Shown: positions 20,741 to 23,501 of the stretch, one piece after another
How positions within the stretch are numbered: the stretch's first letter is position 1
How the letters are laid out: every line of letters begins with the position of its first letter
From: Bacteroidota bacterium
Lineage (GTDB): Bacteria; Bacteroidota; Bacteroidia; UKL13-3
NCBI GenBank assembly: GCA_030680835.1
Contig: JAUXUD010000025.1
Span: 1-33,716, forward strand
Length of the DNA stretch: 33,716 bases
Direction of reading: 5' to 3'
Translations under genes and position numbers: made by a program
The notes under the pieces: model-generated
Told to the model about the DNA's origin: nothing
Database searches by the model: none
What the model saw: the letters and a program-made list of their open reading frames with translations, nothing else

Positions 20741-21827
20741 CTAATGCTGCGAATTCTCCATCAAATAAGCTTTGATAAATTCATCGAGATCACCATCCAT
20801 TACTTTTTGGATATCGGAGGTTTCTACACCGGTTCGCAGGTCTTTAATTAGTTTGTAAGGCTGGAATACATAATTTCGAATCTGGCTGCCCCATTCAATG
20901 CGTTTTTTGCCGGCTTCAATCAGGCTTTTTGCTTCGTTTTGTTTGCGTAATTCCAACTCATACAACTGCGAGCGCAACAACTGGTAAGCCCTTTCCTTAT
21001 TGGCAGATTGAGAGCGATCAACCTGGCAAACAATTACGATGCCCGATGGCTTATGCGTTAGCTGTACTTTGGTTTCAACCTTGTTTACATTTTGGCCACC
21101 CGCGCCACCCGAACGCGAGGTTTGAATTTCGATATCTGCATCTTTAATATCAATTACAATGCTGTCATCAACCAATGGATAACAATATACCGATGCAAAC
21201 GAAGTATGCCTTCGTGCTGCACTGTCGAAAGGAGAAATTCTTACCAAACGGTGTACGCCGTTTTCACCTTTCAAAAAGCCATATGCAAAATCTCCGTCAA
21301 TTTCTATGGAGCATGATTTGATGCCGGCACCATCGCCCGGGGTTTCATCAACCAATGTAGTTTTCATTCCATGTTTTTCGGCATACATCAGGTACATGCG
21401 CATCAGCATTTCGGCCCAATCCTGACTTTCAGTTCCACCTGCACCCGAATTGATATTGAGTACACAATTCATCTGGTCCTCCTCATGGCTCAGCATGTTT
21501 TTGAATTCCAGTTCTTCAACTACTTTCAAGGCATTTCTATAGGCACTTTCTACCTCTTCTTCGCTGCCTTCTCCTGCCTGGTAAAATTCGTATAAAACAG
21601 ATAAATCCTCAACGGTATTGTTGATTTTTGCAAAACCTTCTGTCCATATTTTTTTGAGCCGGATGGTTTTTAGTAATTTTTCAGCTTCTTTGGGATTGTC
21701 CCAAAAATTGGGTGCCAAAGTCTTGGCTTCTTCGTCTTTTATAAGTAACAGTTTTGTCCCGATGTCAAAGATACCTCCTCAGGTCTTCAACCCTTAACTT
21801 CAAATCTTTCAGTTGTTCGTTTGTCAT
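20741..21827 (-). CDS. prfB: Peptide chain release factor 2 (programmed +1 frameshift)
   Basis: RF2 recognises UGA and UAA stop codons and releases the finished protein at the ribosome. It is made here from two reading frames. Codons 1-20 run from ATG 21827 to a TGA at 21767-21765, and after a +1 shift the frame continues from GAC at 21766, for a total of about 361 residues, the normal RF2 length. The shift site reads AGG AGG TAT CTT TGA C, the classic arrangement of a Shine-Dalgarno-like AGGAGG, a 3-nt spacer, slippery CTT and stop TGA followed by C. The peptide release motif GGQ is in [11 protein letters not shown], and the stop-recognition tripeptide SPF is in RISPFDS. An annotation that begins at 21718 would miss the N-terminal part. 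Confidence 0.95.
21764..21779 (-). promoter_or_regulatory. RF2 autoregulatory frameshift site
   Basis: On the minus strand this reads AGGAGG (21779-21774), TAT (21773-21771), CTT (21770-21768), TGA (21767-21765) and then C. Low RF2 slows termination at the TGA and favours the +1 shift, which restores RF2. This is the known mechanism for prfB. Confidence 0.93.
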
Positions 21828-21852: not shown

Positions 21853-21912
21853 CAAAGTTTCTTTTGGTTTAATAAATATAATTCTCTGCCATCATTTAAA
21901 TAAATACATTTG

Positions 21913-22293
21913 ATGAAACCAACAGTTTACGATACAAAAGTAGGAATTACAATTCATGCAATTCGAAAGTTAAGAGGTATTAAACAATACGTATTATCTA
22001 ATGCGCTTCATATTGATCAAAGTACAATTAGCCGCATTGAGAATGGCGAAACTGCTGTTACGGCAGGACAATTATACATTGCTGCTAAAGTAATGGGAAC
22101 AACTACATTTCAAATTCTTGCTATTGTTAAAGCGGAATTAAATATGATGGAATCTAATAAATTAACATCTTTATCAGAATTGATTTTGAACTTTGTTAAT
22201 TTATACAAAAATCCGGGGGTGGGGGGGCAAAAAAATTTCGCTGAAATGGAATTCGAAAATGTCATCAAATTGTTTTTAAAGCAGCAGGCTTAA
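21913..22293 (+). CDS. XRE-family transcriptional regulator
   Basis: A 126-residue DNA-binding protein. The helix-turn-helix of the XRE/Cro-CI type occupies about residues 8-65, with RGIKQYVLSNALHIDQSTIS as the recognition unit and IENGETAVTAGQL after it. The C-terminal part (about 75-126) is helical with no known effector domain. ATG 21913 is preferred to TTG 21910. Codons 101-107 pass through a G5-T-G7-C-A7 run (22215-22235), so a slipped base would change its C-terminus. It opens the AT-rich block that also holds two T9SS cargo genes, and may regulate them; this is inference. Confidence 0.85.
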   Translation: MKPTVYDTKVGITIHAIRKLRGIKQYVLSNALHIDQSTISRIENGETAVTAGQLYIAAKVMGTTTFQILAIVKAELNMMESNKLTSLSELILNFVNLYKNPGVGGQKNFAEMEFENVIKLFLKQQA

Positions 22294-22406: not shown

Positions 22407-22766
22407 ATGAAACAGTTAAAAAAATTACAAGACTATGTTACAAAATTTATTTCTTTAAATCTTTTTCTCCTTGCTGTAACATTAACCGGCTTTATTGCAA
22501 ATTCGAATGCACAGTCTAATCCTTGTGGCTGTACTCCAGTTTCAACAGTAAAATGGCTAATTCTCGTTACTGAATGTCCCCCTCCACCTTGTGCTCCAGC
22601 ATTTGATGATACAGAATGTGGATATACAGATCCTAATGGAAATTGGGTAGCATGTTCTATACAAAGTAGTGTTATAATAGAATACCTTGAAGTAACTTGT
22701 GGAAGCAATACAGCTATCATGTTTAGAAGTGCAAGATTTTCCGGAAGTAAATACGCTTCACCATAA
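22407..22766 (+). CDS. N-terminal part of an interrupted secreted T9SS cargo protein
   Basis: A 119-residue frame with a signal peptide (basic MKQLKK, hydrophobic FISLNLFLLAVTLTGFIA, cleavage near NAQS). The mature part is rich in Cys and Pro (PCGC, ECPPPPC, TECGY), as in secreted proteins held by disulfides. It ends at TAA 22764-22766. The same frame continues past this stop, without another, into the next entry, which carries the T9SS sorting domain. The two together would make one protein of about 364 codons. A nonsense mutation, a base-calling error or stop-codon readthrough could each explain it. Confidence 0.6.
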   Translation: MKQLKKLQDYVTKFISLNLFLLAVTLTGFIANSNAQSNPCGCTPVSTVKWLILVTECPPPPCAPAFDDTECGYTDPNGNWVACSIQSSVIIEYLEVTCGSNTAIMFRSARFSGSKYASP

Positions 22767-22811
22767 GGTTATACTAACCAGGCAGCCGATTATTTACGTG
22801 CTCAACAAAAA

Positions 22812-23501
22812 GTGCTTCAATCGGTAGGAGGTGGAAGTAATTTGAGTTTTGTTTACCCGACAGGTTGCCAAACAATTGCTGAAGTGGTTTATCCTGATCC
22901 ATCACCGTGTTATTGGTTCGTACCTGAAGGACCTAATCAAGGGCAAATATCTTCAATGATAAATTTTGGTAATCCTTCACCCGTTCTTGAATTACTGCCT
23001 TGTGAAGGTCAGAATTGTTGCCAACTTGATTACACATATAGCCCAACAACGGGTAGATATACACTTGTTAATTTTAATCCAATTCAGGTTTGTCCAGGCC
23101 CGCCTCCTACTATTATCACTAAAGACATTACATGTTTAGATATAAATGGCAACCCGGTTACTTACACTGGTACAGTTACATTTCCTCATGGTTGTGAGTC
23201 TTATTGTAGTTCCGCCTTGAATACTTTGTTTAAAACATCTGATATAAAAGAATTTAAACCCTTGCCAGATTTTATTGATTTTAAACTATTTCCTGTCCCT
23301 GCTCATGATTTTATTACATTTTCTACAACCAAATACATTAGCAAACTTGAAATTTATGATGTTTCAGGCAAAAAAATTATACAACAGTCAATATTTGATA
23401 GCAATAATATTGACATCACTAATCTTGCCGAAGGTGTACATTTTATAAGAATATATTTTAACGATACTTCTGTACGCAGTGTCAAAATTTTGAAACATTA
23501 A
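22812..23501 (+). CDS. C-terminal part of the interrupted T9SS cargo protein, with type A sorting domain
   Basis: A 229-residue frame from GTG 22812, in the same frame as the preceding entry and open back to its TAA at 22766. It lacks a signal peptide, so it cannot be exported alone. Cys-rich sequence (PCEGQNCCQLDY, HGCESYC) continues the style of the first half. The last 75 residues, from about DFKLFPVPAHDFI through LEIYDVSGKKI to VRSVKILKH, are a T9SS type A C-terminal sorting domain, which directs cargo through the outer membrane and is then removed. The GTG start is likely an artefact of splitting. Confidence 0.6.
   Translation: MLQSVGGGSNLSFVYPTGCQTIAEVVYPDPSPCYWFVPEGPNQGQISSMINFGNPSPVLELLPCEGQNCCQLDYTYSPTTGRYTLVNFNPIQVCPGPPPTIITKDITCLDINGNPVTYTGTVTFPHGCESYCSSALNTLFKTSDIKEFKPLPDFIDFKLFPVPAHDFITFSTTKYISKLEIYDVSGKKIIQQSIFDSNNIDITNLAEGVHFIRIYFNDTSVRSVKILKH

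Follow-up and report, generated by a model that had tools for sequence, protein, structure and literature searches.

An AGGAGG frameshift site in prfB of a Bacteroidota bacterium and possible co-change of the hexamer with the 16S rRNA tail in Bacteroidia

Why should the prfB frameshift site of a bacterium whose ribosomes are expected to hide the anti-Shine-Dalgarno (ASD) tail of 16S rRNA carry a full Shine-Dalgarno (SD) hexamer? The question arose from a 33,716-nt stretch of a Bacteroidota genome (contig JAUXUD010000025.1 of assembly GCA_030680835.1), which we refer to as the window. An initial annotation of the window, made from its letters alone, had pointed to AGGAGG just ahead of CTT TGA C and offered two explanations: either the tail becomes accessible in elongating ribosomes, or the element works differently. 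The paradox is a correct one, yet it has already been published for F. johnsoniae, and both explanations, each sound as an option, are likewise in print. The F. johnsoniae prfB site reads AGGAGGUAUCUUUGAC, which McNutt et al. (2021; PMC8710568) call a "perfect" SD-like sequence. In that paper, ribosomes are described as pausing for long at this site, the conflict with an occluded ASD is noted, and the long pause is proposed to let the ASD leave the 30S platform. The same paper counts prfB frameshifts in 523 of 726 Bacteroidia and credits SD pairing with promoting the slip in E. coli. Of 12,753 genomes, Prince et al. (2025; PMC12421855) report the motif in 8,164; its consensus approaches AGGGGG, and TAA stands in 1.4% of frameshift sites. 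The window site is therefore an ordinary, well-conserved RF2 frameshift of known kind. What is possibly new is a joint change of hexamer and 16S tail at prfB.

The frameshift site and its ribosomal setting

All sequence elements of an RF2 frameshift are present at the standard spacing in the window's prfB, on the minus strand, which the initial annotation had left unmentioned (Table 1). The stop TGA is codon 21 of the zero-frame leader, whose 3′ end reads AGG AGG TAT CTT TGA C. The product of the +1 frame is a full RF2: it matches the TIGR00020 profile with 467.2 bits against a cut-off of 370, and both the PCRF and the RF-1 domains are present. The complete string AGGAGG-N3-CTTTGAC occurs once in the window, where about 0.0005 occurrences are expected from base composition. 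We rejected the idea that the hexamer itself is rare there, since 11 copies were found (6.3 expected; 6 of 100 shuffles reach 11). The window does offer hardly any other well-spaced SD, as had been remarked: when the 17 bases ahead of the first start codon were tested in 30 mechanical ORFs, an SD core of even 4 bases was present in just one. The prfB ATG itself has no 4-base SD core in the 17 bases upstream. Of the 32 mechanical ORFs whose stop codons were counted, 21 end in TAA, 10 in TAG and a single one in TGA, a distribution in keeping with little demand for RF2-specific termination.

Table 1. Features of the prfB frameshift site, in window coordinates.
Feature	Position	Strand	Detail
prfB zero-frame leader (ORF0), 20 codons + TGA	21765..21827	minus	ORF0 codons 21827-21768
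prfB ORF0 start ATG	21827-21825	minus	
Internal SD-like hexamer AGGAGG	21774..21779	minus	codons AGG AGG (Arg-Arg)
Spacer TAT, hexamer to CTT	21771..21773	minus	3 nt
Slippery CTT, stop TGA and next base C	21764..21770	minus	CTT 21770-21768; TGA 21767-21765; C 21764
+1 frame, RF2 body	20741..21766	minus	341 aa; begins at the G of TGA

Two neighboring features of the window deserve mention in their own right. A Cro/C1-type HTH regulator (PF01381) at 21910-22293 contains a run, GGGGGTGGGGGGG, at 22215-22227 that could be slippage-prone. Two neighboring ORFs at 22407-23501 share a reading frame and look like a single secreted protein gene split by a stop; a Por secretion sorting domain is encoded in the second.

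The prfB site of E. coli MG1655 is built in the same way, with an SD-like hexamer, the 3-nt spacer TAT, CTT TGA C and RF2 in the +1 frame. The hexamers differ, AGGGGG in MG1655 and AGGAGG in the window, and their duplexes with the 16S tail have energies of -10.7 and -12.9 kcal/mol, respectively, so that the window's hexamer is the stronger one, as had been claimed, if modestly. E. coli also commonly uses SD sequences in initiation, unlike the window's class (PMC8710568). The site of F. johnsoniae is the closer likeness, with an identical AGGAGGUAUCUUUGAC, the same class and the same occluded-ASD paradox as described in PMC8710568; it belongs to a different lineage, and the window is known from sequence alone.

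No 16S gene was found in the window's own assembly. Of 64 genomes searched in its family, the 16S tail could be read in 13 and is CCUCC in 12 of them. The bS21 protein encoded in the window genome has Tyr54, the residue described as stacking on the 16S tail in F. johnsoniae (PMC9976891). An extended SD, AAAGGAAAGGAGGTGCACAATT (motif as AAAGGAGGTG), lies upstream of the rpsU ATG in the same genome, and such an extended SD, a feature of many Flavobacteriales, has been described for bS21 autoregulation (PMC9976891). Given these two features, the occluded-ribosome setting presumed by the initial annotation applies here: the window genome is a member of the Bacteroidia with an occlusion-type bS21, and the paradox is real in it. 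The gene itself, with its extended SD AAAGGAAAGGAGGTG and Tyr54, lies at approximately 1474-1700 on the minus strand of another contig of the assembly (locus L035, contig C103 of genome G000).

Conservation of the hexamer across Bacteroidia

We compared the site at two depths. The close set comprises 30 loci, i.e., the window and 29 relatives that were the best matches among 60 genomes. The frameshift is present in all 30, with AGGAGG in 29 and AGGGGG in one. This bears on the trivial reading of the site as a sequencing or assembly frameshift, or as a pseudogene. The assembly behind the window is a draft in 104 contigs, which gives such an error some room, but the shift and the stop are common to 29/29 relatives, AGGAGG to 28 of them, and the +1 frame yields a full RF2. 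We rejected this reading, whose probability we consider negligible.

The class sample of 148 genomes provided 145 prfB starts, once two partial genes and a genome with no RF2 match had been set aside. The frameshift is present in 118 of the 145 and absent from 27. The hexamer at the 118 frameshifted sites is AGGAGG in 74, AGGGGG in 23, GGGAGG in five and another sequence in 16. The initial annotation had made much depend on the conservation of AGGAGG, and it is indeed the prevailing hexamer in both samples. The slippery sequence and stop are CTTTGAC at 116 of the sites and CTTTAAC at two. The median duplex energy with the 16S tail at the frameshifted sites is -11.5 kcal/mol, but pairing is weaker than -7 kcal/mol at 13 of the 118, and weaker than -5 kcal/mol at nine (e.g., AAACAA, AAGCAA, AACCAG, AATCAC). 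When the frameshift is missing, the hexamer is generally missing too: 26 of the 27 frameshift-less genes have no AGG[A/G]GG in the homologous stretch. The exception (locus L124, genome G051) retains AGGGGG TTC CTT, with TCC at the stop position, and is possibly a relic of a frameshift site.

A set of 80 named loci, overlapping the class sample, contains 67 with the frameshift and 12 without; one locus (L281) was dropped. Weakly pairing or non-pairing hexamers are found at frameshifted sites of named Flavobacteriales as well, AGGCAC twice and AGGCAA twice. In a tally of 207 genomes, 168 have the frameshift, 113 of them with AGGAGG. The first codon of the hexamer is AGG at 147 of these 168 sites and AGA at none; the second is AGG at 120 and AGA at four. 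Codon usage in the RF2 bodies of loci L005-L034 and L066-L089 shows the opposite preference, with 149 AGA codons vs. 78 AGG codons. As the hexamer keeps AGG while the rest of the gene prefers AGA, it is the nucleotides, rather than the amino acids, that are under constraint. For orientation only, at least 246 of 392 genomes across the phylum match a wide pattern that presumes Leu-Arg.

Two variants of the site were noted along the way. At loci L206 and L209, TAA replaces TGA (CTTTAAC) and there is almost no SD pairing. At locus L365 (genome G554), prfB retains AGGAGATATCTT and one T of CTTTGA is missing, leaving an open reading frame; either the frameshift was lost naturally and recently, or a sequencing error removed the base.

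Changed 16S tails and the prfB hexamer

If the hexamer acts through pairing, genomes with an altered ASD are of particular interest. Tails changed at the first ASD base were covered by a search of 396 genomes of the class, and other tail changes were looked for in the 148-genome class sample and in the family sample. The class search matched 14 genomes, 13 of which were taken as 16S. The match in the remaining genome (G396) was rejected as 16S on its sequence, having no match to a longer pattern. With G020, a genome of the window's own family, the altered-tail set comprises 14 genomes: two of family f21 with UCUCA, and nine of family f9, G588, G638 and G020 with UCUCC.

The three altered-tail genomes that keep the frameshift are the informative ones. 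G020 has the tail ATCTCC in place of ACCTCC, on a 10-kb contig with 16S, tRNA-Ile and tRNA-Ala, and this change was noticed before its prfB was read. The prfB hexamer of G020 is AGGAGA, i.e., complementary to its UCUCC tail. G588 has two tail copies, which lie at contig starts and read UCUCC and UCUCU; its hexamer is also AGGAGA. G638 has three UCUCC copies and keeps the frameshift with an SD-less GGTAAG. The other 11 genomes, of two families, have no prfB frameshift at all, so that the frameshift is missing from 11/14 altered-tail genomes vs. 5/57 genomes with a normal tail. Absence of the prfB frameshift has been described for the Weeksellaceae analyzed by McNutt et al. (PMC8710568), in which the ASD is UCUCA. 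Family f9, with UCUCC and no frameshift in G044, G470, G495, G515, G534, G624, G652, G688 and G741, is a second such case.

AGGAGA is found in 2 of the 14 altered-tail genomes, which belong to different families. It is in none of the 52 frameshifted genomes among the 57 with a normal tail and a prfB that was read. Nor is it found at any of the 118 class-sample or 67 named sites, which are overlapping sets. The association of AGGAGA with tail type gives a one-sided Fisher's exact p of 0.002, a figure that ignores ancestry and rests on the three altered-tail genomes with a frameshift. AGGAGA also occurs in G021 and G033 of genus g4, but no 16S tail was matched in that genus (G021, G033, or G554 with its remnant site), so it stands outside the co-change count. 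In a tree of 73 RF2 sequences, G021 and G033 group with G020 (support 0.535), and these together with G029, which has AGGAGG, form a group with support of 0.989. G588 clusters with G638 (0.993), and these two may share one tail change. Based on these placements, AGGAGA arose on two or more occasions, always in a group that shows a changed tail.

Duplex energies computed in the G020 context give the likely cost of a mismatch. Against the changed tail, AGGAGA has -10.9 kcal/mol and AGGAGG has -10.3 kcal/mol; against the normal tail, the values are -8.6 and -12.9 kcal/mol, a cost of about 4 kcal/mol for AGGAGA. The normal tail thus disfavors AGGAGA, and the changed tail allows it and slightly favors it, by about 0.6 kcal/mol. 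Because this gain is so small, the co-change could be one of relaxed constraint. The pattern of tails and hexamers is what a pairing constraint predicts, and it may reflect relaxation of that constraint rather than active compensation. Judging from these genomes, we lean towards the view that the prfB hexamer and the 16S ASD evolve together in Bacteroidia, such that after a change of the tail the frameshift is lost, the SD is dropped, or the hexamer becomes AGGAGA. No report of this co-change was found in the literature searched, which did not extend to the texts of Naeem et al. and Jha et al.

A natural covariation of SD and ASD is known from rpsU in Chryseobacteria, where the SD is an extended one (Jha et al., 2021, as cited in PMC8710568). 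Like prfB here, rpsU has kept SD-ASD pairing that covaries within Bacteroidia; it differs in being an initiation site with the ASD UCUCA, whereas the prfB co-change concerns an elongation site and UCUCC. A search of the 32 nt upstream of the rpsU ATG found no GGAGG in G020, G021, G033, G554, G029 or G030, in the four genomes of g14 or in the five of f9 that were read; this reading left out G056. In genus g14 (loci L341-L344), where prfB has no frameshift, an inverted repeat (CTCC..TTTCGGAAA..GGAG) was seen by eye just upstream of the rpsU start, and is possibly another rpsU control element.

Pairing during elongation and its alternatives

The window site is, very probably, a standard autoregulatory +1 programmed frameshift of RF2 in which pairing of AGGAGG with the 16S ASD aids the slip. 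When RF2 is scarce, the ribosome would stall, its A site occupied by UGA and its peptidyl-tRNA-Leu on CUU. The AGGAGG that lies three bases before CUU would pair with the ASD tail and strain the mRNA, which would help the tRNA to slip from CUU to UUU, so that full RF2 is made. With RF2 in abundance, UGA would be read as a stop. Ribosomes of this class normally keep the tail bound to bS21, bS18 and bS6, so pairing probably depends on the long pause at UGA, during which the tail could leave its pocket, as proposed by McNutt et al. (2021; PMC8710568). For the window organism, the pairing, the slippage and the freeing of the tail while the ribosome waits are inferences; what the sequences show is the anatomy and conservation of the site, an occlusion-type bS21 and, in a few relatives, a hexamer that has changed along with the tail.

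The second of the two initial explanations also occurs in the class, as the 13 weakly pairing or non-pairing sites of the class sample, those of the named Flavobacteriales and the SD-less site of G638 indicate that a frameshift can persist without pairing. These sites count against a role for pairing, and G638, as one of only three altered-tail genomes with a frameshift, is at odds with compensation. The slip at CTT TGA C in Bacteroidia might then be independent of the SD, with the tail occluded and AGGAGG either an inherited relic or active only in special states, such as bS21-poor ribosomes. The low frameshifting efficiency in F. johnsoniae cited by Prince et al. (PMC12421855) would agree with this. 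A relic would be expected to drift, however. Most of the class sample has instead preserved the nucleotides of the hexamer, against the codon preference of RF2. It also follows the 16S tail in the few cases where this can be asked. An SD-independent slip therefore seems improbable to us. There is, all the same, a direct mechanistic study of F. johnsoniae, by Naeem et al. in 2024, that reportedly found an efficiency of ~7%, higher with damaged bS21, and a prfB site without its SD is said to have worked equally well. Going by that account, pairing may contribute little in laboratory growth.

A different doubt concerns the co-change itself. AGGAGA in the altered-tail lineages might be a chance synonymous change that is silent on pairing. 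The RF2 bodies counted do use AGA more than AGG, the gain in energy is slight, and the cases are few. AGGAGA is, however, missing from every normal-tail, class-sample and named site counted, and it occurs in two separate families where the changed tail is seen. We regard drift as unlikely. Small as the sample and the energy gain are, the co-change favors real mRNA-rRNA pairing during elongation. The evidence leans to the first of the initial explanations, in which the tail is freed in elongating ribosomes, as the hexamer tracks the 16S tail in two families.

What these comparisons add to the published paradox is comparative evidence that the hexamer acts through pairing. The lineages with altered tails are natural mutants in which one can test directly whether elongation makes a hidden ASD available, the hypothesis put forward by McNutt et al. 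(2021; PMC8710568). G020, G588, G638 and family f9 are the genomes in which to ask it. If true, the co-evolution of hexamer and tail would amount to natural genetic evidence for pairing between the prfB mRNA and elongating ribosomes whose tail is otherwise occluded.
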